From NCBI GenBank assembly GCA_028554795.2, contig CM068831.1, positions 30,991,659 to 31,055,658 on the forward strand: 64,000 bases of DNA, read 5' to 3'. The DNA comes from Sinohyriopsis cumingii. Its lineage: Eukaryota; Mollusca; Bivalvia; Unionida; Unionidae. The position numbers were made by a program, and so were the translations under genes. Shown here one piece after another: positions 1 through 46,971 of the stretch. Numbering within the stretch: the first letter of the stretch is position 1; every line of letters begins with the position of its first letter. Under the pieces are notes generated by a model, which was given only the letters and a program-made list of their open reading frames with translations, was not told the origin of the DNA and made no database searches.

Positions 1-414
1 TATCCAGTGTACCGAGGGGTTGCTCGACAACGAGGACACGGTTTAGGAGATATGTTAAAATCGGCCTTTCGTTCGGTGGCCCCGGTGTTGAAACCGATGG
101 TGACACGCGGATTGCACGCCTTGAAAGATGCAGCACTGACGCAAGGCAAAGAATTTCTCCAAAATGTCATCATGGACAAACAAAACCCTAAAGAAGCCTT
201 CATGAGGGCAGGCAAAAATGTCTTGCTGCAAACGGGCAAAGACATTTTAAGCCGACGAGACACACCTATAAATGCCCTGCACGCTACCGAGTCAGGCATT
301 CAGCAAGGACAAGGCAGAAAGAGACGACGAAGAAAACACCCTTTCACCAGACTTCAAGCTAGAAAGGCCAAGAAAAGAAGAACCGTTCGAGACTTAGACG
401 TTTTCGATTATTGA
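1..414 (+). CDS. Basic core/minor virion-like protein (5' partial)
   Basis: This is a reading frame open from the window edge, so its true start is probably upstream. The visible part (about 137 residues) begins with a Gly-rich segment (HGLGDMLKSAF) followed by an amphipathic helical region, and ends in a strongly basic tail with RKRRRRK and KAKKRR. The same layout, Gly-rich start, amphipathic helices and basic end, is seen in the small protein at 48595-48879 of the inner Polinton and recalls adenovirus pVI/pX-type core proteins. A DNA-binding or membrane-active virion role is inferred from layout only. It sits 18 bp before the capsid-like gene. Confidence 0.5.
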   Translation, partial: YPVYRGVARQRGHGLGDMLKSAFRSVAPVLKPMVTRGLHALKDAALTQGKEFLQNVIMDKQNPKEAFMRAGKNVLLQTGKDILSRRDTPINALHATESGIQQGQGRKRRRRKHPFTRLQARKAKKRRTVRDLDVFDY

Positions 415-432
415 GAAAGAACAGAACAAAAA

Positions 433-1779
433 ATGATGCACCGAGAGTCTTGCGCCTGTTCCAAGACGGAACTGGATCTGTTTGCCATGCCCCCCACCAT
501 GATGACGATGCAAGAATCCCAATGGGTGGAATTTCACCCCGTCTCCTCATTGGCCGATTCTGCTCCCATCGAGTTTGAAATCAAGGGACAGCCCGAAGAT
601 TACATCGATCTGAATAGCAGTTACTTGTACTTGAAAGTCAAAGTTCTAGATAAGGGAGGAGATTCTATAAGCGGCGAAGAGAAAGTAGCTCCCGTCAACA
701 ATTTCATGCATTCCTTGTTCAGCTCAGTGGACTTGTACTTGAATAACAAACTGGTCAGCAGCAGCATGGATACTTACCCTTACCGTGCCTACCTGGAAAA
801 TCTCTTGACGTACGGAATAGATGCCAAGGATACTCATCTCAATGCCTGTGTGCTGTGGGAACCTGACGAAGCGGGCGAATTTAATGAAAAAGGTCTTGAA
901 GCTGACCCCAAAACAAAAACAACCACCAATGAGGGATTTGTAGAACGAAGAAACAAAATCAAAGGACCCGACAAGAGTTTAGAACTGATGGATCGTTTGC
1001 ATTTGGACATGTGGTTGCAAGAGAAATATTTGCTGAACGTTGTCAATGTCCGCTTGAGACTGAATCGCAGTAGTGCCGCTTTCCATTTGTTGGCTGATGG
1101 TGATGCTACTACTGGTGGCAATCCTAAAACCAAAATCGAGGAGGCCAAACTCTACGTACGATGCGTGGAAGTGTTACCTAAAGTAGGTAACGACATCAGT
1201 CAAACGTTGAGCAGAACGACCGCCAAGTATCCCATACGTCGCGTGGAAGTGAAAACGTTCACCATTCCCGCTAACCATCATTCCATGATCGAAGATCATC
1301 TGTTTCAAGGACAGCTACCCAAACGTTTAATCCTTGGTATGGTCGAGAATTCAGCCTTCAACGGAGCCTTCGCTGAAAATCCTTTCAACTTTCAACACTT
1401 CAACGTGAAGAAAATCGAAGTCAGTCGCGATGGCAAGACCTTGTGTACCCGACCTTTCGAACCTGACTTTGATCCCGAAAAAATGAATTACTTGAGATCG
1501 TACTTGTCCCTGTACGAAGCCACCGGCCAGTTAGGAACCAACACCAGTCACGGCATTACGTACGAATATTATGCAGGAGGCTATGCTTTGTGGGCTTTCG
1601 ATTTCACTCCAAACCAAGGCAGCGACGAGGGACATTTCCACCCTATAAAACCAGGCCAGATTCGTGTGGAACTTCAGTTTGCAAATAAACTGCCAGAGAC
1701 AGTGAACGTCATCCTGTATGCAGAATTCGATAATACGATAGAAATCAACAGTTTGAGAGAAGTCATTCTAGATTACTAG
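433..1779 (+). CDS. Capsid-like protein, F54H12.2-like family
   Basis: This 448-residue protein starts at ATG 433 and ends at TAG. It has the features of the invertebrate family usually labelled 'uncharacterized protein F54H12.2-like': an early YIDLNSSYLYLKVKV strand, then VNNFMHSLFSSVDLYLNN, then YPYRAYLENLLTYG, and a beta-rich C-terminal half ending near EFDNTIEIN. These proteins occur in many invertebrate genomes beside Polinton-type integrases and are interpreted here as jelly-roll capsid proteins; the fold is an inference. It lies between a basic core-like gene and an adenain-like protease region, which fits a structural block. The frame is open throughout. Confidence 0.65.
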   Translation: MMHRESCACSKTELDLFAMPPTMMTMQESQWVEFHPVSSLADSAPIEFEIKGQPEDYIDLNSSYLYLKVKVLDKGGDSISGEEKVAPVNNFMHSLFSSVDLYLNNKLVSSSMDTYPYRAYLENLLTYGIDAKDTHLNACVLWEPDEAGEFNEKGLEADPKTKTTTNEGFVERRNKIKGPDKSLELMDRLHLDMWLQEKYLLNVVNVRLRLNRSSAAFHLLADGDATTGGNPKTKIEEAKLYVRCVEVLPKVGNDISQTLSRTTAKYPIRRVEVKTFTIPANHHSMIEDHLFQGQLPKRLILGMVENSAFNGAFAENPFNFQHFNVKKIEVSRDGKTLCTRPFEPDFDPEKMNYLRSYLSLYEATGQLGTNTSHGITYEYYAGGYALWAFDFTPNQGSDEGHFHPIKPGQIRVELQFANKLPETVNVILYAEFDNTIEINSLREVILDY

Positions 1780-1784
1780 AAACC

Positions 1785-2273
1785 ATGGAAGACTGTTGTC
1801 CCTCTTTACCTAGTGGAGAAACTTTGGACATGGAACGTGAGGAGACCGTGGAAAAAGAAGAAGAAGTGATCATGATGAAGTCGAGATGGCCAGAACAAGA
1901 AGCCCATTTAGTCTTCTGTTTTGCCAAACACTTGGTCGAAAAAATGACGGAATTGATCAAGAAAAATTGCTATGGATGTCAAAACGATCATCCCAGTCAA
2001 ATTCAACACGATAAATGCCTGATGTTAAGTCAAGAAGAAAAATTGGACGAATATCTAGACGAAGCTTGGAGTCTCATCTCGAACAAAGACGTGTTGCATC
2101 AGTGGTATAAAGACTTGCGTGAACATTCTTGTCCACCATTAACCACTCAAGAGATCCATCGTATCGAAGCTCTCCTGAATCAGAGTGAGGAGACGAAAAG
2201 AAGAAACGGTTACTTGTCAGACATTTTCAAGCAAAAAGTCAGGATCGAATTGACGACTTATTATTATCTGTGA
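1785..2273 (+). CDS. Unknown acidic/helical protein of capsid element
   Basis: This is a 162-residue protein starting at ATG 1785, only 5 bp after the capsid-like gene. It is rich in Glu and Lys, with an acidic N-terminus (EETVEKEEEV), a central CYGCQNDHPSQIQHDKC segment carrying three Cys and two His that could bind a metal, and a helical C-terminal half. No transmembrane segment is seen. I do not recognise the family. Its position between capsid and protease suggests a structural or assembly role, but this is only context. Confidence 0.45.
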   Translation: MEDCCPSLPSGETLDMEREETVEKEEEVIMMKSRWPEQEAHLVFCFAKHLVEKMTELIKKNCYGCQNDHPSQIQHDKCLMLSQEEKLDEYLDEAWSLISNKDVLHQWYKDLREHSCPPLTTQEIHRIEALLNQSEETKRRNGYLSDIFKQKVRIELTTYYYL

Positions 2274-2299
2274 AGAAGAAAAAAAACAGACACAAATCA

Positions 2300-2769
2300 A
2301 TGGATACCTGGGAACTTTATTACCTTTTGATCCACAGTTCGTATACGGCTTCTTGGAATCCTGTCGTCTGTGCTAAAGATGAACTCCCTCATCGCAAACC
2401 TAAAGACCATCTAGCTTACGTGATCAACACGGACGACAGTCATCTCCCAGGAACCCACTGGGTAGCCGTTTACTTTCCTCAAGAAGGATGTGTGGAATAT
2501 TTCGATTCGTACGGATTGCCCCCTTTGGAAGACGATATCATTGACTTTATGAGAAGAAATGCTCAGACCACCCGATTCAATAATGTGAAATTACAAGGCA
2601 CAGATTCCTCGCCTTGAAAAACGATGTGAAAGTAGATCGATGGTTTTGTGACCATTATGCTTATCTTTTGTCTCAAGCTAGGAAACGTAGTGTCCATCAA
2701 TGGCCTAATGATTTCCAACAGTGGAAATCACAATTTCATTCACAACGTTGTCAGCCCTGTTTAAAGTAG
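2300..2769 (+). pseudogene. Adenain-like cysteine protease region (fossil)
   Basis: The region begins at ATG 2300 with MDTWELYYLL. It shows the typical adenovirus/Polinton maturation-protease signature: GTHWVAVYF around the catalytic His, then EYFDSYGLPPLEDD with the acidic residue of the triad. A downstream stretch resembles the family's C-terminal part. Such proteases process capsid and core precursors during virion maturation. The inner Polinton has a counterpart at 46088-46426. The region is treated as a fossil and looks broken. Confidence 0.65.
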
Positions 2770-2879
2770 ATTGTCAATTGAGAAAAAAATGTTGGTGATT
2801 TGAAAAAATTGTTTGATGTTATAGTGTTGGATTATTGTTAAAAATGTTAGAGTTGTTGTTTAGTGTTAAGTGATTTTTG

Positions 2880-2885
2880 AATAAA
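2880..2885 (+). terminator. Poly(A) signal AATAAA after structural block
   Basis: AATAAA lies about 110 bp after the protease region in AT- and GT-rich DNA (TGTTGTGTTTTG follows, like a GU-rich downstream element). This suggests that the structural genes end in ordinary polyadenylation, in contrast to the three downstream genes with histone-type ends. Confidence 0.55.
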
Positions 2886-3011
2886 AATGTTGTGTTTTGA
2901 AAACAATGCCTTTGTCTTTTGTTTAGCTATAAGAATGTTGGATTGATGCTCTTTCATTTCTTACTATCCCTCTCATGACACTCACTGAACGTTGCGACTC
3001 GAAAATCGTGT

Positions 3012-3050
3012 GGGGGATGTTTTCCTTCACGTCCGCGCTTTGACTTTAAG
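3012..3050 (+). promoter_or_regulatory. Repeated promoter module, copy 1
   Basis: GGGGGATGTTTTCCTTCACG followed by TCCGCGCTTTG and a TATA-like ACTTTAAG at 3043-3050. The same block precedes the genes at 3948 and 4748. A short CAGTCTAACC about 20 bp after the TATA-like box is a possible initiator. The ATG of the gene follows at 3105. Confidence 0.65.
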
Positions 3051-3104
3051 AACCGGGGTTGTTTCCAGTCTAACCATCCATTGTCGACTCATCCTCCTAC
3101 GAAG

Positions 3105-3458
3105 ATGTGCTCCAAACTAGCTAAACTCAACGAAGCCTACGTGAATTTGCATAGGGTCAGACACAGTCTGATACCGAAGCCAGAAGAAATAGAGAATGTG
3201 AGAATGTTAAAAATCACTGAAGACCTGATAGAAGAATTCTTCAGAGAAGAAATGAACAGGGAAAAAGAAGAATGGACAGAGAAGTACAGACTTCAGAGAC
3301 AGCAGCAACAGCAGCAACAACAACAGCAGCAGCAACCTGAACCTGACAGAGGCTTTGTCGATTGCCGTATCGACACCAAAGAGTTCTTCTCTTTCCGAAG
3401 AAGCAGACCTATCGCCAGAAAGTCTATCCTCAGAGGACATCGCATTCTTAGAAACTAA
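3105..3458 (+). CDS. Coiled-coil protein 1 with polyQ, histone-type 3' end
   Basis: The first ATG after the promoter module is at 3105 and gives about 117 residues. The N-terminal third is a heptad-like helix (KLAKLNEAYVNLHRVRHSL). A charged E/K/R stretch leads into a run of about 13 glutamines (near 3301-3337), and the C-terminus is basic. The N-terminal helix resembles those of the genes at 3948 and 4748, so the three look like diverged paralogues. No known domain is recognised; a DNA- or protein-binding accessory role is possible. A histone-type stem-loop follows 28 bp after the stop. Confidence 0.55.
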   Translation: MCSKLAKLNEAYVNLHRVRHSLIPKPEEIENVRMLKITEDLIEEFFREEMNREKEEWTEKYRLQRQQQQQQQQQQQQPEPDRGFVDCRIDTKEFFSFRRSRPIARKSILRGHRILRN

Positions 3459-3486
3459 AAAAGAATGCCATAGCAAACAAAAAAAC

Positions 3487-3525
3487 AGCCCTTTTCAGGG
3501 CTACCCAATACTCTAGAAAAGAAAT
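3487..3525 (+). terminator. Histone-type 3' stem-loop + U7-like element, copy 1
   Basis: AGCCCT (3487-3492), loop TTTC, AGGGCT (3497-3502), then ACCCA. This matches the metazoan replication-dependent histone mRNA hairpin: 6-bp stem, four-base loop, ACCCA flank and A-rich 5' flank. TAGAAAAGAAATA about 10 bases downstream resembles the purine-rich histone downstream element that pairs with U7 snRNA. Seen directly; function is inferred from the histone paradigm. Confidence 0.8.
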
Positions 3526-3670
3526 AACGATCAATTTGCCAATGTGTGTAGGTAGAGTAGTGTGAATATAAACACTAACTCTTTATTGATAGTGAGAGTG
3601 TATGTGTTTGTGTGTTTGTAAGTGCTCACGTAAGTTGGTGTGGATAGTAGATTAAAATCATGTTTTTTTG
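3508..3670 (+). repeat. Conserved 3' block, direct copy at 4383-4540
   Basis: The DNA after the first stem-loop (ATCAATTTGCCAATGTGT, TAGAGTAGTGTGAATATAAA, CACTAACTCTTT, TGTATGTGTTTGTG, CACGTAAGTT) recurs in the same order after the second stem-loop at about 4404-4540. It shows that gene, 3' end and promoter were duplicated as one unit of roughly 0.8-0.9 kb. Confidence 0.7.
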
Positions 3671-3796
3671 GTGTTTGAGGTGTATATTTGGGGTTAGATT
3701 GGATTGCTTTGCGTATGTGGATAGTCTATTGAAGTGGTTAATAAAAAAATTTTAAAATAGTGAGGGGCAGCATAAAAAAGTGAGTGAGTGTTTCTT

Positions 3797-3895
3797 TTAG
3801 GTCCGCGCGTTGTTGTTTTTGGTCATGATCTAGGTAAGATCAATTTTATGTTTTTAGGGGGATGTTTTCCATCACGTCCGCGCTTTCAATATAAA
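3797..3895 (+). promoter_or_regulatory. Composite promoter module, copy 2
   Basis: A partial GTCCGCGCGTTGTTG box at about 3800, then GGTCATGATCTAGGTAAGAT and a full GGGGGATGTTTTCC...CACGTCCGCGC block from 3857, then TATAAA at 3890-3895. GATCTAGGTAAGATC is an imperfect palindrome that could bind a dimeric factor. The transcription start is probably near CAGTCTAGC at about 3911, and the ATG is at 3948. Confidence 0.65.
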
Positions 3896-3947
3896 TTGAA
3901 ACTCGCTCGGCAGTCTAGCTACCCTTGTTGATTGATCAACACCAAAA

Positions 3948-4325
3948 ATGAACACGAGACTGGAGAAACTGTTGGAACTTCATGTGCATCTGGAATATGC
4001 CAGGCGCATATTAAATGAACTGGCCGCGGAAGCCATTGTGGAGGAGGGAAGGATAAGAGAGGAGGAGGAAAGAAGAAACAAAGAAGAGGAGGAGAGAAGA
4101 TATAAAGAAGAAGAGGAAAGAAGATACAAAGAGGAGGAGAGAAGATACAAAGAAGAGGAGGAGGAGGAGGAAAAGGAGAGAAGAAGAAATTTCAGAATCC
4201 CAGAAACCGAAAATTGGGATTCTGAAGCCACATATCCTGCCTCTGCTCTCTCCCCCAAAAAGGTAAAAAGTAACTGGGGGACAAGATGTGTATGTGGCGC
4301 CAGGCCTGGAAGGTGTCACCATTAA
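3948..4325 (+). CDS. Coiled-coil protein 2 with E/R-rich repeats
   Basis: This is a 125-residue protein from ATG 3948. The N-terminal helix LEKLLELHVHLEYARRIL is heptad-like and resembles the flanking paralogues. The middle is a low-complexity charged helix of repeated RRYKEEEE-type units that probably grew by slippage (codons for Glu, Arg, Lys and Tyr repeated), followed by a short S/P-containing tail. The long single helix is predicted to be extended. Function is unknown. It has its own promoter module upstream and a histone-type stem-loop 36 bp after the stop. Confidence 0.55.
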   Translation: MNTRLEKLLELHVHLEYARRILNELAAEAIVEEGRIREEEERRNKEEEERRYKEEEERRYKEEERRYKEEEEEEEKERRRNFRIPETENWDSEATYPASALSPKKVKSNWGTRCVCGARPGRCHH

Positions 4326-4361
4326 CCAGGTGTCCATGAAGTTCAAAAAAAAAAAAAAAAC

Positions 4362-4402
4362 AGCCCTTTTCAGGGCTACCCCAATACTCTAGAAAAGAAA
4401 TA
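4362..4402 (+). terminator. Histone-type 3' stem-loop + U7-like element, copy 2
   Basis: AGCCCT, TTTC, AGGGCT at 4362-4377, then ACCCC. It is preceded by a run of A and followed by AGAAAAGAAATAAC (from 4391). The arrangement and spacing are the same as in copy 1. Confidence 0.8.
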
Positions 4403-4592
4403 ACTATTAATTTGCCAATGTGTATAGGTAGAGTAGTGTGAATATAAACACTAACTCTTTTTTTAAAAAATGTGAGTGTATGTGTTTGTGTTTGTAACCG
4501 TTCACGTAAGTTTGTGTGAATGGTAGATTATGGGTTTCTTAGCGTATGTGGAGAGTATAGTTTGGGTTTTATTATATGAAATGAGAAAAGTA

Positions 4593-4707
4593 GGGGGATG
4601 TTTTCCTTCACGTCCGCGCGTTGTTGTTTCTTTGGTCATGATCTAGGTAAGATCAATTTTATGTTTTAGGGGGATGTTTTCCTTCACGTCCGCGCTTTCA
4701 CTATAAG
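4593..4707 (+). promoter_or_regulatory. Composite promoter module, copy 3 (double GC block)
   Basis: Two full copies of GGGGGATGTTTTCCTTCACG + TCCGCGC start at 4593 and 4669, 76 bp apart. Between them is the same TTGGTCATGATCTAGGTAAG block seen in copy 2. TATAAG lies at 4702-4707, 41 bp before the ATG at 4748. Confidence 0.65.
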
Positions 4708-4747
4708 AACCCACAGTATTCGTCGTTCAAACCATTCTACAAAGAAG

Positions 4748-5137
4748 ATGGCTTCTAACCAAATGGACAAAATACAAACATTGCAAGACGTTTTAGACAA
4801 CTTAGGAATGATGGAGCAGATGTTAATAAGACTCGTTGAAGACCATTATTCCTATAGTCCCCATCGTGTAAAGATGGAAATTAATAACTTAAAAAAGGTA
4901 AAGGACAAGATTAGTGGTGTCATGAAAGAGATAAAGGAGGAGAAGGAGGATGAAGAGGAGAGAATAAGAATAAGCAAATGGAACGAAAAAAATGAAAAAG
5001 AAGAAGAAAATGAGAAGAGGAAGAAAGAAGAGGAGGAAGAGAAGAAGAAAGAAGAGCAGGAGAAAATAAAGAAAGAGAAGAAGAGAAAGAGTGTAGGAGA
5101 TAAAATAAGAACTTGGTGGAGAAAAAGAAGAAATTAG
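4748..5137 (+). CDS. Coiled-coil protein 3, E/K-rich, basic tail
   Basis: This is a 129-residue protein from ATG 4748. The N-terminal 50 residues form heptad-like helices (KIQTLQDVLDNLGMMEQML); the middle is a long E/K-rich single-helix-like stretch; the end (KKRKSVGDKIRTWWRKRRN) is basic and aromatic and could serve in DNA binding or nuclear targeting. It is the third diverged paralogue of the tandem set. Despite the histone-like 3' end it lacks a histone fold or H1 composition. Function is unknown. Confidence 0.55.
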   Translation: MASNQMDKIQTLQDVLDNLGMMEQMLIRLVEDHYSYSPHRVKMEINNLKKVKDKISGVMKEIKEEKEDEEERIRISKWNEKNEKEEENEKRKKEEEEEKKKEEQEKIKKEKKRKSVGDKIRTWWRKRRN

Positions 5138-5162
5138 AAGCAGAAGAAGAAGAAAACCCAAA

Positions 5163-5203
5163 GGCCCTTTTCAGGGCCAGCCATATTTCTCGAAAAGAGA
5201 TAG
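5163..5203 (+). terminator. Histone-type 3' stem-loop + U7-like element, copy 3
   Basis: GGCCCT, TTTC, AGGGCC (5163-5178) then AGCCA. The stem differs from copies 1 and 2 by a compensating base-pair change (outer A-T becomes G-C), which supports selection on the hairpin. CGAAAAGAGATAG follows; AAAAGAG is the core that pairs with CUCUUUU of U7 snRNA. Confidence 0.85.
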
Positions 5204-5249
5204 CCTTTCAATTGCCTACCCCTTTTTTAAAAAAATTTAAAAAAAAAAA

Positions 5250-5466
5250 CCATGTTCAATTCCCTTTGAGGCTAGAGTGACCCAAGACTTTTTTCCATGT
5301 TCAATTCCCCTTGAGGCTAGATTGTCCCACGATTTTTTTTCTCCATGTTAAATTTCCCTTGTCGCCAGAGTGTCCCACGATTTTTCTCCATGTTAATTTT
5401 CCATTGTCGCCAGAGTGTCCCAGGGGTCTCTGTAATGCTAATTCCCATTGTCGCTAGGGTATCCCA
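5250..5466 (+). repeat. Tandem array of ~45-bp units
   Basis: Five imperfect copies begin near 5250, 5295, 5343, 5388 and 5434, each CCATGTTMAATTYCC followed by TTGWSGCYAGAGTGTCCCA and a T-run. It lies just after the last gene of the capsid-bearing element and may mark its terminal region or be a host minisatellite. Confidence 0.7.
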
Positions 5467-5469
5467 CTT

Positions 5470-6845
5470 TACTACTCATATGCTTGCATCCTCCATGTTT
5501 AATTATTGTAGCATTTGTTGTAAATTGAATAGGTGTTGGTGTAGTACCTGATGTTGTTGTGAATACACTAGTTTTGTGATAAGCTCACCAGTGAAGACAA
5601 TCGTCGTTTTCTGTGTATCCAAGCCAACCGTCTGTCCAGTTTGAGAATCCGTTCTAAAGAATGCCATTGGTGCATAATGGGGATATACTTTCATGGGGTT
5701 GGTTGGTATGGCCTGGGGGTTGGATGGGAGGGATTGTCTTCCAACCTCTCACAAGAATTGGGGGGTACGATATTCACGTTTTCGTCCACCCAATACACTT
5801 TCATTTCCACTATGTAATTTAAGTACAAGTCGACTTAAATTGATGAAATTGGGTGTATATTACTAGAGAGCATGATGTGTACCACACCGCGGGTTTTAGT
5901 TTCACAGTCATGATCATGGGTTGGCATTTTCCGTGTATGTTTCTAACAGTTATCTACAGAAATTTGAGATCTACATGTGTAAGTCAGATGGATGAAGTTC
6001 AGTTTACTTATGTCATTTTTAGGCATCACATTAAAGACAGTGTCATCAACGTAAATATCACAGAACAATGATTGGGACATTTTCTCTTCACCTTTGTAAA
6101 TTTGAAGCCATCTCAGACACAGGATAAAACTTGATACTTATATCGGTATGTAGTTCTACGAAGAAATCAGTTTAGTGCCATTTTCGGAGTGGTAAAGGTC
6201 ACATGAATTCACCAAATTATTCACAACCCACGAAACCAGAATGCATGTCACTTGTATCTTTAAAATAAGTTTACTTTCTTGCAACATTCTCATGACTGTA
6301 TATATGCTGTAACCATTTATGCTTATTTATGAAAATATTCTTAACCATTCACAAAGAATGATTAGAGGGCAGTTGACAGAACAGAAAGTGACTCTTAAGT
6401 GCGTTATTAATACTTGCATATTATACTCTTTATAATCTCTCAACACAGCTACCGGAGCGGTCGATACTCAAAAATAATTTGGAATAGAGTCGTCGCCACT
6501 GAAGTCAACCTCGCTGTACATAATAAGTACACATGCCCCAAATACTCTAAGTACGAAGGCGTGGTAGTCAATGCACGTAAAGAAAAAGGAATTATATAAT
6601 TTCAACAACTTTCGAGAAAACGGCGAATATATCTTTTCATAGTCTGGAGAAAGTCTTACTTAAGTTGAAAAATACAAACTTAACCACAAATCATGAGTCT
6701 TACGTGGGTAAAGATAAGAGATACTTATCATAGAGTGTATCTGTTAAAAAGTAAACATATATCCCGTAAAATAAAATAAAAGTAGATTTATTTACTATTT
6801 TTCTTCTTTTTCCAAGTTTAAATATTTGTCGTGTGTAATGCTATG
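5470..6845. other. No supported gene; possible decayed fragment near 5500-5830
   Basis: AT-rich DNA without a convincing gene. A minus-strand stretch at about 5500-5830 has short protein-like runs that might be a very old structural-gene remnant, but I cannot place it. The rest shows no repeat or exon signal. Confidence 0.4.
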
Positions 6846-36323: not shown

Positions 36324-36989
36324 TCATGAATAAATTTGATCGAGACCGATTCGATATCTACTACGCGGATCATGAAGATTAATCGTGATGAAACCATGCG
36401 GTGTTGCCTGGGCGCGGCTGAAGAAATTTTTGAATTTGTTTATGTCAATGTCGCCGTTACACCAAGTCTGATGAATATTTCTCAACGTGTGAGTATCAAC
36501 GCCATTGAAAACCGATAAGATATTGCAATTGTCCCTAATTACCTTTGGAATTTGCGTATATCGCTGCGTCACGTAAATAACATCGCTGTTCTTGTGTCGG
36601 CCACGCGAAAATATCCTAGCCGGATTAGTTTGCTTATCCAGCATAACATCATCGAATACGACAAGATTATTAACATCGCCATCTAAATTTTCCACTGATG
36701 GAGCTTCATTGATGTCTGTGATGAATTCGATTGTGCCTTCGTCGGTATTGTCGCTAAATTCCTTTAGTACTTGATAACAACGCTGATCATCAACGGACGG
36801 TGCAACCAAATACAACTTATCCCATTTTAGCCATCGCATTATCAAATTTAGCAACAACTGCGTCTTTCCAGAACCAGACGGGCCAATAATTATCATCCTT
36901 ATCGAATTCGGTAACACCGCGTTGTGTTTCACCTGCTCGCGTCGCTTCGTGGCTGAAAAATCAATTACATTCATGTTACTAGAATACAT
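36324..36989 (-). CDS. Packaging ATPase (FtsK/HerA, A32-like)
   Basis: Two possible starts, ATG at 36989 (MYSSNMNV...) or 36974 (MNVIDFSATK), give about 217-222 residues, usual for Polinton ATPases. The Walker A motif is IIIGPSGSGKTQLLLNL, the Walker B region LVVFDDVM, and a sensor-like stretch VIYVTQRYTQIP follows. The enzyme is expected to drive DNA into capsids. It lies at the left end and diverges from the zinc-ribbon gene: the upstream ATG overlaps that gene's ATG as CATG. The frame is open throughout. Confidence 0.85.
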   Translation of the reverse strand: MYSSNMNVIDFSATKRREQVKHNAVLPNSIRMIIIGPSGSGKTQLLLNLIMRWLKWDKLYLVAPSVDDQRCYQVLKEFSDNTDEGTIEFITDINEAPSVENLDGDVNNLVVFDDVMLDKQTNPARIFSRGRHKNSDVIYVTQRYTQIPKVIRDNCNILSVFNGVDTHTLRNIHQTWCNGDIDINKFKNFFSRAQATPHGFITINLHDPRSRYRIGLDQIYS

Positions 36990-37164
36990 GGATCTATATT
37001 GTGTTAAGTGTCGCACGCGCACAGCTACGATAAATCCAATCGAAATTGTCACACGCAATAACAGGAACGCAATTGCAGGAGAATGCGATATTTGTAAGAC
37101 ACGCAAGTTCAGATTTGTAAAAAAAAAAATAGAAGAACCGGAGGAGACATTACCGCCTCCATGA
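36988..37164 (+). CDS. DUF5679-like zinc-ribbon protein
   Basis: This is a 58-residue protein, MDLYCVKCRTRT...GECDICKTRKFRFVKK. The two CxxC knuckles about 30 residues apart match the small DUF5679 zinc-ribbon family found in large DNA viruses and other virus-like elements. A role in DNA or RNA binding, perhaps transcription, is inferred. I start it at ATG 36988 because an upstream in-frame ATG would place a poorly conserved extension over the ATPase start. Its stop overlaps the start of the PLA2 gene (ATGA). Confidence 0.75.
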   Translation: MDLYCVKCRTRTATINPIEIVTRNNRNAIAGECDICKTRKFRFVKKKIEEPEETLPPP

Positions 37165-37496
37165 AAAATCTACCCGGGTTGCCCTGGGCGAAATATCCCG
37201 GAGAAAAGCATCTACCAGGATACAATTACTGCGGACCTGGTACGAGGCTCGATATAAGACTCAACGATAATAATCAACCAAATCCCGGCGAAGATCCAGT
37301 AAACGCCATCGATAACGCGTGTTACTATCACGATCTTGCGTATCGTAGCGGGGATTTACAACAAAGACATCTCGCTGATATTAGGCTAATTCATGCAATA
37401 GACGCGATTCCTGACAAAAGTTTCAAAGAAAAATTGGCAACTTGGTTGATAAAAGGCGCAATGAAAGGTAAATTAGTATTCGGTGCTAATAAATAA
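37161..37496 (+). CDS. Parvovirus-type phospholipase A2
   Basis: This is a 111-residue protein. It has the calcium-binding loop YNYCGPGT near residue 22 and the catalytic helix NAIDNACYYHDLAYRSG around residues 50-66, with the His-Asp pair. This is the secreted-PLA2 type known from the unique N-terminus of parvovirus VP1, where it breaches endosomal membranes; here it is a separate gene. LPGYNYCGPGT preceded by GLPWAKYPGEKH is the classic lead-in. The ATG overlaps the stop of the zinc-ribbon gene, and the integrase starts 2 bp after its stop. Confidence 0.85.
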   Translation: MKNLPGLPWAKYPGEKHLPGYNYCGPGTRLDIRLNDNNQPNPGEDPVNAIDNACYYHDLAYRSGDLQQRHLADIRLIHAIDAIPDKSFKEKLATWLIKGAMKGKLVFGANK

Positions 37497-37498
37497 TA

Positions 37499-38449
37499 AT
37501 GGAGCAGATATATTATTCTCCGCGAGGATTCTGGCGAGGAAAATCAGCAATTGCCAAACTCGCTAAAGCCGCTAAAGTAAAACAATCCACCGCTGAATCG
37601 TGGTTATCGAAACAGGCAGTCTGGCAAATATATCTTCCTCCGCCTAAGAAAATACCATATGCAAGTTTCACCGTCAGTGTCCCTAATGAAGTCCATCAGG
37701 CTGATTTAATGTTTCTTCCTTACGATACCGTCGACGGAGTCACATATAAATATGTCTTGACAGTCGTTGATATCGCCAGCAGGTATAAAGAAGCCGAGCC
37801 GTTATCGAATAAAACAGCAACGGAGATCGCTAAGGCGTTTAGCGAAATTTATTCACGATCTCCATTAACATGGCCGAAGCTTCTCCAGGTTGATCCAGGT
37901 CGAGAATTTCTTGGCGCGGTTACTTCACTGATGAAAAAGAATAATGTTAAAATCCGTCGCGGTATTGTAGGTGTTCATCACAATCAAGCTATCGTTGAGA
38001 GATTCAACAAAACTCTTGCAGAACGATTATTCGGATACCAATACGCGCGTGAATTTATTCAAGATAATCGATCTCATGATTGGGTATCAAGATTGCCTCA
38101 TGTGATTAACGCGTTAAATAACGAAGTAACTCGAACAATAGCAATGAAACCCGCAATTGCAATTACAAAATCGAATATACCTCTAAAGCGAGATTCCACA
38201 ATTCCGCCTGTGCTAGGTAGCGTCACTGTCAGGTATTTATATAAAGAAGGCGAGGCCGAAGGAGGAAGAAAAAGAGCAACCGATCCAAATTGGAGCGTTA
38301 CAACACATAAAATATCAGCCGTAACAAGATCGTCAGGGAGACCAGCAATTTATTTTCTAGATTCGCTAGCGCCACAACGCGGATTTACCAAAGAAGAATT
38401 ACAAATAATACCGAAAGATACTCAACTACCGCCAGCGTCATTAATGTGA
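37499..38449 (+). CDS. Polinton integrase (rve, DDE)
   Basis: This 316-residue protein has an N-terminal helix-turn-helix-like part, and the catalytic core shows D69 (HQADLMFLPYD), D132 (LLQVDPGREFLG) and E167 (HHNQAIVERFNKTL), a D,D(35)E arrangement. The family is often labelled 'F54H12.3-like transposon-derived protein' in animal genomes. It inserts the linear element DNA at 6-bp staggered sites, consistent with the ACAATC duplication. A C-terminal basic beta-rich region (YLYKEGEAEGGRKR...) may be chromodomain-like. It converges on the polymerase-helicase gene with a 28-bp tail-to-tail overlap. Confidence 0.9.
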   Translation: MEQIYYSPRGFWRGKSAIAKLAKAAKVKQSTAESWLSKQAVWQIYLPPPKKIPYASFTVSVPNEVHQADLMFLPYDTVDGVTYKYVLTVVDIASRYKEAEPLSNKTATEIAKAFSEIYSRSPLTWPKLLQVDPGREFLGAVTSLMKKNNVKIRRGIVGVHHNQAIVERFNKTLAERLFGYQYAREFIQDNRSHDWVSRLPHVINALNNEVTRTIAMKPAIAITKSNIPLKRDSTIPPVLGSVTVRYLYKEGEAEGGRKRATDPNWSVTTHKISAVTRSSGRPAIYFLDSLAPQRGFTKEELQIIPKDTQLPPASLM

Positions 38450-41412
38450 TTTACTCGAATTCTACCTAACTGAGATAATTTTCTTACTCTCGACACAGCT
38501 AAATATACTAAATTTGACCAGGAAATTCTATCATCGACGATCCAAACTTGGCCATCCACGGTTAATCCCTGCGACGAGTGTATCGTTGTTGCGTATCCAA
38601 GTTTCCATGGCGATCTTTCTGCGTTTATCGCGTCATTGACAAGATTAATATCAACAAGAATAATATCATTCAAGACTAAAATCTTTTCCTCTCCGCAGGG
38701 TAAAGTAACACTGATATTTTGTTTCCTGGTATCAGCGGGCCTGTAACATAACGGCACCTGCAATGTTGGAAATTTCTCACAATGAAGTTTGAATAACATA
38801 TCCTGAATAATATCGCGAACAATTTTCCTACTAGCAACAATCAGATGATCTGGACGCCACAAATTTAGAAAAATATCCATCGGAGTCTCGTCGATTATTC
38901 TTCTCATCACATCGCATTGAAACTTATTCGGTTGTAATCGAATTATTTTCTTAAATTCGGTCAGTAAAATATCATCGGATCTATAATCGGCGTCGATTTC
39001 CTCATAATAGTCAACGAAGTTCCTGAGCCACTCATGAGGAGATTCACCATCAATAGGATCAGGCTGGCCGTGATCTCCGCACATTACCACGGCGGTATTT
39101 TTCTCCTCCAGCCAGATCAGGAACGATTTTAATACAACTAAATTTACTGTGCAAATTTCATCAAATATTATAATTCTGTTGATATATTTATTTCCCATGC
39201 GAGCCGAATCCCATAATCCACCGCTGTATTTGAAATAACTGTGATACGTGCAAGAATCAACGCCGCGTTGCCTTATTTCTCGCGCTAATCTGTGAGTTGG
39301 AGTCAACACTATCATATCAGATTTCGCAAATAAATTTATCGCTCGCGTTGTTTTACCGCTACCACCAGGACCATTCATGTAAACGAATTTACTACGTGAA
39401 ATCGGGTCAAATGCAGATGCAGCCGTCGATATTTCCTCAAATTTATCTCGATGAAATTTATCGCAATCTTCGACATCGGCGTCCTCACAGTAATCTAGGA
39501 TATCCTCGTTTTTTATCCTCCAAGTTCCCCAAGAACCATCGGCGATTAAATTATCCAGCCTATACTGGTATTTCTTATCGATATAAAACGAGTCCGTTGC
39601 GACCCTTACCGCGATATCAGAAAATTTATTTATCATCGACAGTAAATTTATACTCACATAAGCGAGCATCGATGATCTCAAATGCGTATACTGCGCTGAT
39701 TCTCCATCGAGATAGCTAATTACGGTACCTAATTTTTCTCCGTCAATAATAATATTCTCTCTGTTGCAGAATATTCCACGCGATACCGTATCGGCAATAA
39801 TAAAGTCCATTTCGGCGTCGTTGATAAATAACCTAGCGTGTCGATGTTTATGATCAACGGATCCTCCTTGAGTAAATTTGCCAATTATTTTTCTTCCGAT
39901 ATCTTTCGCGTTTTCACAATCCGTCGGCAACCACACTTCAGTTTGTTTTCTATACGATATAATCGCCTCGCTCACCGTCAACGATATTAACATTGACGAA
40001 TCCAGCATATATCTCAACAACACCGTAGGAACCCATCTGCGTTGAGATAAATGCCGACCAAACCAAATATAACAAATTTTATGTAAATTTTCAGCAAACT
40101 CGAATGAAGTAACATAAGCGAATCCGGTCATAACAAAATCTGGCAACGGCCCGTTAATTGCAACTCTCGTCATCTCGTTGGTGGGATGGCCAAATTTAGC
40201 AAAATAATCTGCACAATCGCCATATCCAAGGAAACTTCCAGGATACCACGCGCTCATGTCAACGGATATCATATCTTCGAAATAATATTTGGTATTCCAC
40301 AATCCGCCATGGCCATACTCGATACAGCTAAGTTGAATATCAGTGAGGTATTCGTTCCTTGTAGGTTTCCACGAATTTCTTTCTCTGGCGGCGTGAGCGG
40401 CAACAGATGGAACAGTAAAACAATTCGTTAATAACTGATCAGGATTTGACGAATATTTCACCGCGATATTTCTCATCGATTCATGCAATTTTTCATCGCG
40501 GTAAATATCTCCTCGCGGCAATATAAACTGATCGTATTTTTCTTCGCTCGAGAATAACCAAACCGATATCGGATCAGATGCGGCTAATATTTTGATAAAT
40601 CTGAACATAGCATCGGAATTGTCCTTTGCACCATCCGCAGATTTACTATCTGTGGGATAAAATTTAACAACACGATCTCGCAGAAATATCATTACCGATT
40701 GCGACCACGCATGTGAATTATGATCAATAATTTCGATTGGAACTCCTCGAGATCTATACGGCGACGAATATAATATTTCTCCTGATAGCGTTTTCACGGT
40801 AATAGGAAATTTAAGTTTCTTGCTCAACACAGCAACATCGTCAATCCATGCGCCATCAACAACAGTCTTCGCCCATGAATTAATTTTATTCAATCTCAAC
40901 TGGGTCAATCCAGATCCACGACGAGCGTTTTTCATATGCTCGATAACGCGCTCGGCAACGCAATTTATCATCGGAGATTCTTTCATCGCAGGTAGATTTT
41001 TCATGTCAGGATTATTATTTAGCCGATAAATTCCATAAACAACTGCACTAGATGGATATGCCCTGGCATAATAAGGACCGTCAATTCCCAATAATAATCC
41101 TGGCTTCGAATTTTTATCAAGAACAACATTTTTCTTACCGCCACGCACGGGATCTCGTTTATCGCGAATAATCCAAGTGTCGTCAGGCATTTGTGCAATA
41201 ATTTTTATTCCAAAGATAAATCGTTCTTCCTTGTGTTCGGATTTTATGTGCTCGATTATCTTCTTGGCCCGTTCCAGATTCATCGTAGCATCAGCAGAGT
41301 TAGTTTTCCATGTCGACCAAGTGTGAATCGCCCCATCATCGAAAAATTCCTTCTTGGCGCGATCAACCTCAGGTATAATATATTCTGCCTCATCAAGATC
41401 AAATGCATCCAT
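38422..41412 (-). CDS. Family-B-like DNA polymerase fused to SF1 helicase
   Basis: A single 996-residue frame. The N-terminal ~360 residues have no clear domain (possibly exonuclease- or priming-related). Then come polymerase-like motifs: EYGHGGLW (~365), SVDMSAWYPG (~384, motif A), LRSSMLAYVSINLLS (~578, motif B region) and RVATDSFYID (~603, motif C). After a short acidic linker the last ~320 residues form an SF1 helicase of the Pif1/RecD type: NGPGGSGKTT (~680), IIIFDE (~747), CGDHGQPDP (~778), TIHSSQGLTVDG (~943) and AVSRV (~972). Ordinary Polintons have an unfused protein-primed polymerase, so this gene is notable. It would replicate the element. It diverges from the zinc-finger gene by only 31 bp. 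Confidence 0.8.
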   Translation of the reverse strand: MDAFDLDEAEYIIPEVDRAKKEFFDDGAIHTWSTWKTNSADATMNLERAKKIIEHIKSEHKEERFIFGIKIIAQMPDDTWIIRDKRDPVRGGKKNVVLDKNSKPGLLLGIDGPYYARAYPSSAVVYGIYRLNNNPDMKNLPAMKESPMINCVAERVIEHMKNARRGSGLTQLRLNKINSWAKTVVDGAWIDDVAVLSKKLKFPITVKTLSGEILYSSPYRSRGVPIEIIDHNSHAWSQSVMIFLRDRVVKFYPTDSKSADGAKDNSDAMFRFIKILAASDPISVWLFSSEEKYDQFILPRGDIYRDEKLHESMRNIAVKYSSNPDQLLTNCFTVPSVAAHAARERNSWKPTRNEYLTDIQLSCIEYGHGGLWNTKYYFEDMISVDMSAWYPGSFLGYGDCADYFAKFGHPTNEMTRVAINGPLPDFVMTGFAYVTSFEFAENLHKICYIWFGRHLSQRRWVPTVLLRYMLDSSMLISLTVSEAIISYRKQTEVWLPTDCENAKDIGRKIIGKFTQGGSVDHKHRHARLFINDAEMDFIIADTVSRGIFCNRENIIIDGEKLGTVISYLDGESAQYTHLRSSMLAYVSINLLSMINKFSDIAVRVATDSFYIDKKYQYRLDNLIADGSWGTWRIKNEDILDYCEDADVEDCDKFHRDKFEEISTAASAFDPISRSKFVYMNGPGGSGKTTRAINLFAKSDMIVLTPTHRLAREIRQRGVDSCTYHSYFKYSGGLWDSARMGNKYINRIIIFDEICTVNLVVLKSFLIWLEEKNTAVVMCGDHGQPDPIDGESPHEWLRNFVDYYEEIDADYRSDDILLTEFKKIIRLQPNKFQCDVMRRIIDETPMDIFLNLWRPDHLIVASRKIVRDIIQDMLFKLHCEKFPTLQVPLCYRPADTRKQNISVTLPCGEEKILVLNDIILVDINLVNDAINAERSPWKLGYATTIHSSQGLTVDGQVWIVDDRISWSNLVYLAVSRVRKLSQLGRIRVNHINDAGGS

Positions 41413-41443
41413 TATTATATTTTAGACAAATATCTAAATTATA
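41413..41443. promoter_or_regulatory. Bidirectional promoter gap
   Basis: 31 bp of A/T between the divergent ATGs of the polymerase-helicase and the zinc-finger gene (TTATATTTTAGACAAATATC). Any promoter must overlap this gap or the coding starts. Confidence 0.4.
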
Positions 41444-41794
41444 ATGAATAAATGTTCGTGGATACCAATCGGATCAACAAAATCATGCGACAAATCCTGC
41501 AGAGGCGATTATTGTGGCGCTCATATATATGCGATTCGACGAGGCAGTAAAGGACCACAGCGGTGCTTAGTTTGTCAAGTTGGCACTCGAGGAAAGACCC
41601 GATTGTGTTTATCCTGTGGAGGGAAAAATTATCGAGAATTGCTCAGATATTACAAAAAGAAATCTTCCTCGATAATAACCTGCGAAGAAGATGATATTAA
41701 TCGATTCAAGGCAAATTACGATTTAAACAAACAGAATATTGTATATGGAACTGAAATCAACGATTCCTCCAGCAACAATCACATACGAGTTTAG
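41444..41794 (+). CDS. Cys-rich zinc-finger-like protein
   Basis: This is a 116-residue protein with Cys pairs CDKSCRGDYC, CLVCQVG and LCLSCGG, followed by a basic helix (RELLRYYKKK) and a polar tail. The pattern suggests two or three zinc knuckles and nucleic-acid binding. I do not recognise a named family. Its end overlaps the start of the HNH gene by about 50 bp in another frame. Confidence 0.55.
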   Translation: MNKCSWIPIGSTKSCDKSCRGDYCGAHIYAIRRGSKGPQRCLVCQVGTRGKTRLCLSCGGKNYRELLRYYKKKSSSIITCEEDDINRFKANYDLNKQNIVYGTEINDSSSNNHIRV

Positions 41795-42299
41795 ATTACA
41801 TCCAACCATCGAGGGTTACGAGGCTTCATCGGATGGTATCGTTAGAAATATCAAAACGAAAAATCATGTCGGTAGTGTTAATGGATTTGGATATCTCAAA
41901 ATTACCGTCGGTAATGATAAAAAACGAAGATGTACGACTTATTTCTGTCACAGGTTCGTATTCGAAGTTTTCCACGGACCAATAAAAATCGGTCTTGTTA
42001 TAGACCATATTGACGGAAATAAACTTAACAACAAACTATCCAATCTTCGCGCGGTAACTCAAAGTGTAAATTGTAAATTTAATGGCGGATATCGATCAGC
42101 TAAGGCGGTAAAATCATTAAATCGAGAAACAAATGAAGAAATTGTATTCACGTCGATGAACGCCGCCGCAAAATATTTTAGTATTAATCCAGCATCGGTG
42201 AATCGTGCAACAGAAAAAACAATCAACGCAACATTCTCCCACAAATTCGGCGAGTGGATCGAGTTTTACTATATTCCGATAATATCCGAAGAAAATTAA
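41745..42299 (+). CDS. HNH homing-type endonuclease (NUMOD4-HNH)
   Basis: Starts at ATG 41745 (MELKSTIPP...), giving 184 residues. NUMOD4-like start (EGYEASSDGIVRN), then the HNH nuclease core: CHRFVFEVFHG, VIDHIDGNKLNNKLSNLRAV and TQSVN. The C-terminal part (EEIVFTSMNAAAKYFSINP) looks like the NUMOD1 helix-turn-helix DNA-binding module. Such proteins are typical of phages and large DNA viruses, where they cut a specific site and promote their own spread. No intron is apparent around it, so it would be free-standing. Confidence 0.85.
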   Translation: MELKSTIPPATITYEFRLHPTIEGYEASSDGIVRNIKTKNHVGSVNGFGYLKITVGNDKKRRCTTYFCHRFVFEVFHGPIKIGLVIDHIDGNKLNNKLSNLRAVTQSVNCKFNGGYRSAKAVKSLNRETNEEIVFTSMNAAAKYFSINPASVNRATEKTINATFSHKFGEWIEFYYIPIISEEN

Positions 42300-42325
42300 A
42301 TTGAATATTACAAAATCTATATAAT

Positions 42326-42547
42326 ATGGACGAAGAAAATATAAATAACATCATCGAAGCCATCGATGATCTGAGAAAGAAAAAAATAAATCTTCCATCG
42401 GATCTAGACACGAATAAAATCCGATCCGAATTCGAGACGATTGTTCAGGGGAAACTCGAATACAAATACACGCTGCCGTCAGAGTACAAATTAATAAAAA
42501 AAGATCCAAATTGCCATGTATCAATCACTTGCGACTGTCAGCGATGA
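42326..42547 (+). CDS. Small unknown protein (73 aa)
   Basis: ATG at 42326. It is charged and helical, with N-terminal DEENINNIIEAIDDLRKKK and a C-terminal CHVSITCDCQR. No family is recognised. Its end overlaps the next small frame by 32 bp. Confidence 0.4.
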   Translation: MDEENINNIIEAIDDLRKKKINLPSDLDTNKIRSEFETIVQGKLEYKYTLPSEYKLIKKDPNCHVSITCDCQR

Positions 42548-42704
42548 TCAAATCGAGGATTTTGTTAAATTATCTACGCTAGTGGAAAAAGCTAGATTGA
42601 TTTTATCAGAAGCATATGAATCAAGAAAAATTACAAGTTCACGCGTCAGACAGCTGAAAAAACTTGTCGATGAGAGCAAGGCCAAGGAAATTTCTGATCC
42701 TTGA
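42516..42704 (+). CDS. Small unknown helical protein (62 aa)
   Basis: ATG at 42516. It is composed of two amphipathic helices (EDFVKLSTLVEKARLILSEA and SRVRQLKKLVDESKAKE). No family is recognised. It is the last plus-strand gene before the convergent structural block. Confidence 0.4.
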   Translation: MYQSLATVSDDQIEDFVKLSTLVEKARLILSEAYESRKITSSRVRQLKKLVDESKAKEISDP

Positions 42705-42840
42705 ATTTTCCTGAAGATTTCCGCAAACAAAAAAAAAACAAAAATTAAAAAAATCTTCCAATTTTGAAAATTTCCTCGGTTTTTATTTATTTTTTTGGCC
42801 CATTTTTCCCTGGTGTACAGATTCAAAAAATCTGCGATTC
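42705..42840. terminator. Convergent 3' region with minus-strand poly(A) signals
   Basis: A/T-rich spacer between convergent blocks. TTTATTTATT at 42782-42791 reads AATAAATAAA on the minus strand and could end the long structural transcript. The plus strand has A-runs but no clear AATAAA. Confidence 0.5.
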
Positions 42841-44390
42841 TCACGATTTTACCAGCAGATTGATACTTATCGTTTCCCCGCGTATATCAAGCAAATTTCC
42901 TTTCTGATCCGTTAGTTTGAAATTTATCCTTGACAACAATCGATTATGACATCTTAGGTAAAACGGATTCACTGGCTCCTTTATTATCAAATAACCAGGA
43001 GAGGCGCTAGGTGAAAACGAATACAATATAAATCCCTGCTGCGCCTGATTTGACTCTGACGAATCAACATTGTAGCTACCCTCGACAACATCCGCGTGAA
43101 GATAAATCGCGATAACTTCCGTTATGTTAACGATACCTGGCGAGATATGCCGCCCCTGCCCGGCGAGATCGTTATTGTGTTTGAGAATCGATTCTGATTG
43201 TATTTTTTTAGTCCACGCGGCATGTAACTTCGGAAATAAATCATCGATGGTATCAGTAAAAGATTTTCTCATTTTATCAACATCATAATCGGGAAATTTG
43301 AAATTTGGTAGCGTTTCCTCGGTTAAACCAAATACTCTCATGAATTTTTGTTTTTCTCCTGAATTTCTGATCAACGTGAATTTGCTAATAGGAAGAACAT
43401 AATCGGCAATTGATATATCGTCGACTATCGCCTGAATAAACATACCATGATAATATTCAACATCATTCGCGAGTTGATTTAAAATTTTCACGCGTCCGAT
43501 AATTTCGCTACATGAGCCTGATTTATTTAAGATGCATTCATGAAAGGATTCCCGCAATAAATTTAAATGTAATTTATGTTCTTGATTAAATTCGTTGATG
43601 GTTCTTCTTATCGAGATGCCTTCTATGGGGAATATTTTCCTGTTAATGTGGGTAGCGTCGAAGATTTCCACGCCGGGGGAATTTTGGGAAGAGCCAACCA
43701 CGAGAGAACTTTTTCGTCCCTAAAAGTAAAAGCGAACATTAACATGTTAAATTTGTGGATGTTCACGAAGCTGATGGCAGTGTGGATTAGAGACTTGTGT
43801 TTGATATCTCCGTACCATCCTTCGTCGGTGGTAAAATCTTCTTTTTTTGGTTCCGGTTGCTCTGGAGGAGCTTCCTCGTACCAACCTGGAATAATAAAAT
43901 CAGATTTTTCTGGTTTTGCCAGAGGTGCGATTTCAGGCCAACCTAATATGGTCCTAATCGATGATTGGTAAATATCTACCATGTACGGTGATTTCACTTC
44001 TATCATCGATGACAGTGTTGGATCGTGCGCAGATATCTTTATTCCCGGAGTAGCATCGCCGGTTATATTTGATATTCTACTGGTAAATTCCTTACCTAGT
44101 TGCTCAATTTCGTAACTGCCTGTTGGTATACCGACATGTATCCAATCAGGTGTTCCATCAGGTTTGTTTTTGTTGGCAAAAACAAGCGAATTGTTTGATA
44201 ATAATTTGCCAAATGATTTCGATCTAACATTAGGCCAACTGTTGTAGACACGCAATTGTGTTAGTGCAATTTCTTTGACGCTGATTGGTGTTGAAAAATT
44301 AATGCTAAATTCTGGCTTGGTTGAGTTTAACGATATTAGTGTTGTTGTCGGCGGTGTCGTGTTTGTCACGATCTGGGCTAGTTCGGACAT
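42841..44390 (-). CDS. Minor capsid (penton-like) region
   Basis: The region starts at ATG 44390 (MSELAQIVTNTTPP). The early part has EFSINFSTPISVKEIALTQL and VYNSWPNV, typical of the N-terminus of Polinton minor capsid proteins. The late part ends with RINFKLTDQKGNLLDIRGE and ISINLLVKS, the family's C-terminal signature. These proteins form the vertex penton with a single jelly-roll. The region follows the membrane-protein gene with an overlapping start. It is treated as a fossil part and may not be fully intact. Confidence 0.7.
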
Positions 44391-44835: not shown

Positions 44836-44865
44836 TTATTAATTAATTTACCTGACTAATTGGAT

Positions 44866-46426: not shown

Positions 46427-46479
46427 AAATACGCCTCTGAAAAATTTTATTTTTTTATTCTTTGCTTCGCTAAGTAGAT

Positions 46480-46938: not shown

Positions 46939-46971
46939 ATTAATAACCGCTTAATCTAAATTTGGAATTTG

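Follow-up and report, generated by a model that had tools for sequence, protein, structure and literature searches.

Accessory genes of a Polinton family in the bivalve Sinohyriopsis cumingii appear to be built like host replication-dependent histone genes

Why should genes that do not encode histones end like histone genes? This question is raised by a Polinton at the beginning of a 64,000-nucleotide (nt) stretch of contig CM068831.1 (positions 30,991,659 to 31,055,658) of Sinohyriopsis cumingii, referred to here as the window. Three genes of this element (genes 1, 2 and 3), coding for coiled-coil/charged proteins, are each followed by a hairpin of the type found at the 3' ends of replication-dependent histone mRNAs. 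To our knowledge, the standard teaching is that such stem-loop ends occur almost only on histone genes. The observation holds and is wider than first noted, as it also includes promoters and two more hairpin-ended genes (D and E) at the other end of the element. Promoter boxes and a TATA-like word precede genes 1-3, while a stem-loop and a downstream element follow genes 1-3, the D/E pair and an additional gene family, C. Judged from these sequences, the outer accessory genes of this Polinton family are in all likelihood built like host replication-dependent histone genes at both ends, and most likely use the host SLBP/U7 pathway for their 3' ends together with S-phase histone transcription. 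The replication-dependent histone mRNA pathway is treated in sections of PMC5706932 and PMC12775136 and, for a cnidarian, of PMC5011920, and the palindrome is also described for the histone genes of a bivalve (PMC6210712).

The first-pass annotation had reported a hairpin behind each of the three coiled-coil genes, and the hairpins are indeed located 28, 36 and 25 nt past the stops of genes 1, 2 and 3, respectively. Stem-loops 1 and 2 share one sequence (AGCCCTTTTCAGGGCT), and the stem of copy 3 (GGCCCTTTTCAGGGCC) is kept, as had been claimed, through a paired change of the first pair, G-C versus A-U in stem-loops 1 and 2. The purine element proposed to follow the stem is also present (AGAAAAGA or CGAAAAGA, 12-13 nt past the stem); the word AAAAGA starts at 14-15 nt, a little beyond the proposed spacing of 10-13 nt. 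Stem-loop 3 scores 35.6 bits with the Rfam Histone3 family (RF00032), over the curated cut-off of 34. A scan for the metazoan-form hairpin with at most two mismatches detected exactly these three in the window and none in 100 shuffles. The proteins are not histones, in agreement with the annotation: Pfam gives no histone match for genes 1-3, C, D or E. Matches below the Pfam cut-off, of gene 3 to TAF4 (E 0.00068, 19.9 versus 33 bits) and of gene 2 to MAP7 (E 0.00063), are taken as coiled-coil composition.

The hairpin core was also present in 20 stretches of the IMG/VR collection that served as a control. No Histone3 match was obtained in the 18 of these 20 scanned at the curated cut-off, which stem-loops 1 and 2 would also miss, or among the 14 scanned with E values up to 0.05; one stretch (L019) lay outside both scans. 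A word like the downstream element was found in one of the 20 stretches and an A-rich 5' flank in two. Scans of IMG/VR for a hairpin together with AAAGA returned one and five stretches, one of which was already among the earlier ones, and the five new stretches gave no Histone3 match at E up to 0.05. Because the core hairpin arises by chance in a large collection, the telling feature is the whole block of flank, stem-loop, spacing and downstream element. In the 2.9-Gb host genome, the stem-loop core RGCCCTTTTCAGGGCY occurs 56,197 times and its reversed control not once. Chance hairpins are ruled out by the shuffles, the IMG/VR controls and this genome count.

The 3' ends were compared with those of the canonical histone genes of the host, which are arranged in repeats with a spacing of about 8.3 kb (150 scored of 662 first-look candidates). 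In the host repeat L068, with the gene order H3, H4, H2B, H2A and H1, all five genes have the same kind of stem-loop followed by a GAAAAG-type element, which reads AGAAAAGA in four of the five. The H2B stem-loop is the same 16 nt as that of gene 3. The H2A loop is TTTA, a loop shared by three element stem-loops of the capsid-chosen sample described below, and the H1 stem has a paired change of its own. The RF00032 scores of host ends (35.0-39.4 bits) and element ends (31.0-41.2 bits; 29.3-35.6 in the window) overlap, with 41.2 for D, 35.6 for E, the gene-3 type and C, and 31.0 for the gene-2 type. An alignment of 16 distinct host and element ends places the purine-rich downstream element of the element ends at host spacing. 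All 96 stem cells of this alignment are paired, two pairs are changed on both sides, and the covariation value of 0.171 (0.096 in shuffles) was not reached in any of 500 shuffles. Elsewhere in the genome, a tandem array of an H2B variant (G000:C1:5072500-5079500) with a spacing of about 1,851 bp carries a histone stem-loop with the 16 nt of gene 3 and a promoter box closely resembling that of the element. A genome search for the haemocyanin domain PF14830, as a marker of the host phylum, gave no match among the four candidates scored, too few to be informative.

Giant viruses and virophages have unspecific 3' hairpins, and the hairpin could be imagined to serve the element as its own viral signal for 3'-end formation or termination, or to form a DNA structure used in replication or packaging. 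The perfect 6-bp stem, the two copies located in terminal inverted repeats (TIRs) and the relationship of Polintons to virophages described in part of PMC11071308 fit such a role. We nevertheless regard it as highly improbable, given that the sequence, 5' flank, spacing, downstream element and loop (mostly TTTC, sometimes TTTA, both in host genes) match host histone genes, that the interior copies, behind genes 1, 2 and D, are in sense orientation, and that the hairpin is accompanied by histone promoter boxes.

These boxes form a repeat ahead of genes 1-3 that corresponds to a promoter box of the host histone genes, present in the same orientation at H2B and H1 and in the opposite orientation at H2A, with a related box at H4; none was seen ahead of H3 in L068. 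The core of the box, GTCCGC, presumably resembles the HiNF-P site of vertebrate H4 promoters. An action of HiNF-P on H4 promoters is described in a section of PMC5706932. None of the literature matches offered a usable printed sequence of the box or a usable mollusc histone promoter. We compared window positions 2601-5300 with the whole host repeat using exact words of at least 13 nt, with simple sequence excluded. The longest shared words came from the H2B promoter (24 nt), the H4 promoter (21 nt) and the H2B stem-loop (17 nt), each in sense orientation and at the equivalent position. As controls, the remaining 58.7 kb of the window shared at most 14 nt, and the host repeat read backwards at most 15 nt. 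Genome-wide, there are 30,227 occurrences of the 23-nt H2B-type box and 9,240 of the 21-nt H4-type box, and none in either reversed control. Among 49 H2B-type boxes in a stretch of contig C1, 39 are followed on the same strand by a stem-loop at 406-843 bp, and none has an opposite-strand stem-loop within 1,200 bp.

Complete copies of the element contain five hairpin-ended genes, and dividing the 56,197 stem-loops by five suggests a family of about 10^4 elements. On the C1 stretch, 15 of 18 D/E pairs are accompanied by further stem-loops 16-21 kb off in the expected orientation, and the full series of five was found for nine pairs; in these nine elements, no stem-loop of the searched form was listed between D and the right-hand group. 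Family C (L030 840-1474, in two frames; L031 1538-2107; L032 1544-2140) encodes proteins of up to about 198 amino acids and stands in for gene 3 in some of the elements, likewise with a histone stem-loop at its end: the histone-type ends are fixed, and the cassette between them is exchanged. A lone stem-loop with a downstream element but no assigned gene (GGCTCTTTTCAGGGCC) was noted at L037 504-519 (+).

One sample of related elements was chosen by the capsid-like gene (8 of 94 hits), and only the 1.5-3.8 kb downstream were scanned, allowing up to three mismatches and a loop starting with TTT; 22 hairpins were found in this way, and one with a TTCC loop was added by a laxer scan of L131 and L136. 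The stem-loop recurs in all eight copies, as expected from the initial claim. All three right-hand hairpins are present in seven and two in the eighth (L136). The 23 hairpins found are all fully paired, 21 have the downstream element, and none was seen on the other strand. In another sample, 20 of 150 scored gene-3 copies, the stem-loop is intact in 19 copies, with one stem mismatch in the other, and the downstream element is present in 18; these copies were not chosen by the stem-loop but are close copies only (98% identical proteins). By contrast, the loci L026-L033 were picked by an exact stem-loop, and their 100% stem-loop identity is partly by construction. In these copies, the first 36 nt past the stem are 69-100% alike and the next 100 nt 36-92%; the family E copy of L029 reads GGTCCTTTTCAGGGCC, and its two pairs were excluded from this flank comparison. 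The two gene 2 copies differ at 61% of synonymous sites, yet their interior stem-loop, which was not used to choose the locus, is identical. Their flanks are also 78% alike, so the gene 2 pair alone is not decisive. The pairs of family C appear to offer a clearer case for a conserved post-stem block, with 69-86% in the 36 nt past the stem versus 36-50% in the next 100 nt.

These samples bear on whether the signals still function, since a piece of a host histone gene could have been taken up by an ancestral element and spread passively in thousands of copies as a fossil. Descent by capture would fit the long exact words in common with host H2B and H4. Passive spread is very unlikely, however, as the signals are rightly placed in several different genes, none of which encodes a histone-like protein, and the 36 nt past the stem are better kept than the sequence beyond. 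A paired change keeps the stem, and among the first 100 genomic stem-loops listed on contig C1 the stem base is paired in 97 (62 G-C and 35 A-T, with three A/C and no G/T). The complete pairing of all 23 hairpins in a sample chosen regardless of the hairpin also argues against a relic.

The proteins of genes 2, 3, C and E are under purifying selection. The ratio of nonsynonymous to synonymous substitution rates (dN/dS) equals 0.05-0.19 for gene 3 (0.08 and 0.19 for this copy against two others), 0.15 for gene 2, 0.14 for C (two of three pairs computable) and 0.08-0.16 for E. For D, the signal is weaker (0.34-0.44). This conservation of reading frames (dN/dS 0.05-0.19) indicates that the proteins matter, and counts against the idea that thousands of element transcripts act as decoys, titrating SLBP/U7 or the histone-promoter factors and starving the host of histones. 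Although 56,197 stem-loops far exceed the number of host histone genes, we find a decoy role scarcely credible.

Several observations weigh against the proposed histone-type control. Stem-loops 1 and 2 score 31.0 and 29.3 bits, under the RF00032 cut-off (E 2.8e-6 and 1.2e-5, 2.8 kb searched), and one of the 23 hairpins in the capsid-chosen sample has a changed loop (TTCC). The stem-loops of E and gene 3 are within the TIRs, so that repeat homogenization explains part of their sameness. The 3' region of gene 1 contains ATTAAA and AATAAA further down (3651 and 3740). With regard to promoters, a stem-loop on the same strand is also found up to 1,200 bp upstream of 25 of the 49 H2B-type boxes, as is expected from neighboring genes. 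In the 20 gene-3 copies, the proximal box varies, reading CGTCCGCG in six and CGTACGCG in 13, with an unrelated sequence in one, and in the eight capsid-chosen elements CGTCCGC or GGTCCGC is kept at 23 of the 29 box-like sites listed. The D/E promoter is without the histone promoter box and has GGATTGG (CCAAT) motifs and TATAAATA instead. The host machinery was not detected either: RF00066 did not find a host U7 among the 65 of 801,960 candidates scored, and PF15247 gave no SLBP match among 14 scored candidates, numbers that cannot show absence. A first guessed U7 pattern had 19 matches versus 26 in its reversed control, with no convincing U7 layout and no U7 match among the six of 19 loci submitted to Rfam; for a second pattern (23 versus 42 reversed), the best Rfam U7 score among the 20 of 23 loci fetched was 21.0 bits, with a cut-off of 34.

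The bidirectional D/E promoter (L027 2103-2323, L029 693-895, L033 2102-2322) combines GGATTGG (CCAAT), TATAAATA and a TGACGTCA site, in a layout that we take to resemble divergent H2A/H2B promoters.

How would such genes be expressed? Host histone-promoter factors of the HiNF-P/NPAT type, in the histone locus body, would switch on their transcription in S phase, and the nascent RNA would be cleaved past the stem-loop by SLBP and U7 snRNP. The product would be a short, intronless, non-polyadenylated mRNA that persists and is translated during S phase and is degraded once replication ends. The element may then have two gene classes, an S-phase one (early, replication-licensing) and an ordinary one, comprising the capsid, protease and replication genes, which lack histone-type ends. 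Two transcript classes are suggested by the capsid/protease block, which lacks a stem-loop and is followed by AATAAA at 2880, and by the lack of AATAAA and ATTAAA behind gene 2 up to 4747 and behind gene 3 up to 5800. We lean towards the view, based on sequence features, that five non-histone genes form an early class modelled on the way the host expresses its histones, from the histone-locus-body promoter to the SLBP/U7 3' end, and that the proteins of this class would be made only in host S phase, tying replication of the element to host DNA replication. The element probably makes its hairpin-gene proteins mainly while the host copies its DNA. A more tentative possibility is that the signals serve expression in the germline and early embryo rather than S-phase coupling, as oocytes and cleavage embryos stockpile and translate stem-loop mRNAs on a large scale, so that the element would be expressed where new insertions are inherited. 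Germline activity is needed for the high copy number, and SLBP-independent control of maternal histone mRNA is treated in a section of a 2026 preprint (PMC12803260). Such expression would be compatible with the S-phase control that we prefer.

The coordinates of all features are given below, including the left-hand neighbors of genes 1-3. The element extends from position 2235 of L071, the locus left of the window, to window position 5476 (12,901 bp) and shows TIRs, a 6-bp target-site duplication (TSD) CATATG on both sides, an rve integrase and an adenovirus-type cysteine protease, all of which are marks of Polintons. L071 contains the divergent pair D/E, both outer ends of which carry a stem-loop, an integrase (Pfam rve 2.4e-13 and Chromo 1.2e-7) and N-terminal frames that we take to be PolB-like; the PolB-like pieces of this internally deleted copy gave no Pfam polymerase match. 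From the PolB-like frames and the 16-21 kb of other copies, we infer a Polinton with an internal deletion; its protease frame is broken.

Features of the Polinton copy at the beginning of the window
Feature	Positions	Strand	Basis
Right part of the 12,901-bp internally deleted Polinton copy; left end outside the window, at C8:30984234	1..5476	+	TIR and TSD comparison with L071
Putative basic core-like protein gene, no hairpin behind; no Pfam match	52..414	+	open reading frame (ORF)
Putative capsid-like gene (F54H12.2-like), no hairpin behind	433..1779	+	ORF, genome matches
Cysteine protease gene piece, interrupted frame, no hairpin behind	2300..2617	+	S273R protease E=0.0015; second element's protease E=8e-11
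AATAAA past the structural gene block, possible ordinary poly(A) signal, contrast to hairpin genes	2880..2885	+	sequence
Histone H1/H2B-type promoter box, gene 1 (TTTAAG 3045-3050)	3016..3038	+	repeat search, host comparison
Gene 1, 117 amino acids (aa), coiled-coil/charged protein, not a histone by Pfam	3105..3458	+	ORF, Pfam
Histone-type stem-loop 1 (AGCCCTTTTCAGGGCT, AGCCCT TTTC AGGGCT)	3487..3502	+	Rfam, mismatch scan, alignment of ends
Histone downstream element 1 (AGAAAAGA)	3515..3522	+	alignment of ends
Histone H4-type promoter box, 21 nt identical to host H4 promoter	3791..3811	+	shared-word comparison
Histone H2B-type promoter box, gene 2, 24 nt identical to host H2B promoter (TATAAA 3890-3895)	3861..3884	+	shared-word comparison
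Gene 2, 125 aa, coiled-coil/charged protein	3948..4325	+	ORF, Pfam; dN/dS 0.15 against L026 copy
Histone-type stem-loop 2 (AGCCCTTTTCAGGGCT, AGCCCT TTTC AGGGCT)	4362..4377	+	Rfam, mismatch scan, alignment of ends
Histone downstream element 2 (AGAAAAGA)	4391..4398	+	alignment of ends
Distal histone-type promoter box, upstream of gene 3	4597..4619	+	repeat search, host comparison
Proximal histone-type promoter box, gene 3 (TATAAG 4702-4707)	4673..4695	+	repeat search, host comparison
Gene 3, 129 aa, coiled-coil/charged protein	4748..5137	+	ORF, genome matches, dN/dS
Right TIR, 95.6% identical to left TIR over 338-column match	5155..5476	+	TIR comparison
Histone-type stem-loop 3 (GGCCCTTTTCAGGGCC, GGCCCT TTTC AGGGCC), within right TIR, identical to host H2B stem-loop	5163..5178	+	Rfam, shared words, alignment
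Histone downstream element 3 (CGAAAAGA)	5191..5198	+	alignment of ends
6-bp TSD CATATG; other copy at L071 2229-2234	5477..5482	.	flank comparison

The capsid-like gene has 94 scored genome matches including itself, all at least 89% identical (28,367 first-look candidates). Neither Pfam nor PHROG returned a match for it, PDB gave nothing above a chance-level match (E 0.34), and no relatives were found in IMG/VR by capsid peptide or in phage records. Its similarity to the capsid of a second element in the window is weak (BLASTP E 0.09). For gene 3, the 150 scored genome matches, among them gene 3 itself, are all at least 98% identical, and 148 contain no stop. The second element, a different Polinton-like one at window positions 36324-50633, encodes a double-jelly-roll (DJR)-like capsid (PF21738), an A32-type ATPase and an rve integrase; it contains neither a histone stem-loop nor an exact promoter box. 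Much of the right TIR consists of four to five repeats of 45-48 bp (window 5244-5466). A gene with two gag-like CCHC zinc-knuckle matches (L029 1792-2208 and L071 3911-4489, both on the minus strand) adjoins D on the strand opposite to the PolB-like frames. In the region G000:C16:30337497-31470754, 11 copies of the capsid gene, each with an in-frame TAG, occur about 80-165 kb apart, as if a segment carrying the element had been duplicated in tandem.

If the proposed control is true, it would show DNA parasites synchronizing with host replication by a new route, and would offer a natural many-copy test of which histone signals suffice for S-phase expression. It would also hint at how one genome came to hold about 10^4 copies of a Polinton. 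Among known systems, the closest carriers are the Polintons/Mavericks (Polintoviricetes, including adintoviruses), which likewise have TIRs, a 6-bp TSD, an rve integrase with a chromodomain, an adenovirus-type protease and a capsid-like gene. In contrast to the present element, no member with histone-type promoters or 3' ends appeared among the literature matches listed, and the word 'histone' is absent from the main text of one Polinton paper (PMC11071308). More generally, non-histone genes with histone-type ends were not found in any virus or mobile element among these matches, as judged by titles and the beginnings of abstracts. Metazoan replication-dependent histone genes share with genes 1-3 the stem-loop, the downstream element, the short histone-size gene, the common promoter box and the TATA word, but the element's proteins are not histones by Pfam and its genes reside in a mobile element. 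Viruses encoding histone-like proteins, such as bracovirus H4, nudivirus ORF1 and the adomavirus 'Histoid' (described in parts of PMC11728702 and PMC11071296), are similar in that a DNA virus borrows from host histone biology. For instance, the Tegillarca clam adomavirus, which has a Histoid gene, carries adintovirus-like virion genes in a bivalve dataset according to a section of PMC11071296; unlike in our case, 'stem-loop' is absent from the text of that paper. As far as these sources describe them, such viruses mimic the protein, whereas the element copies the gene control and not the protein. The carrier, a Polinton, is of a known kind; the control of its accessory genes appears to be of the histone type.

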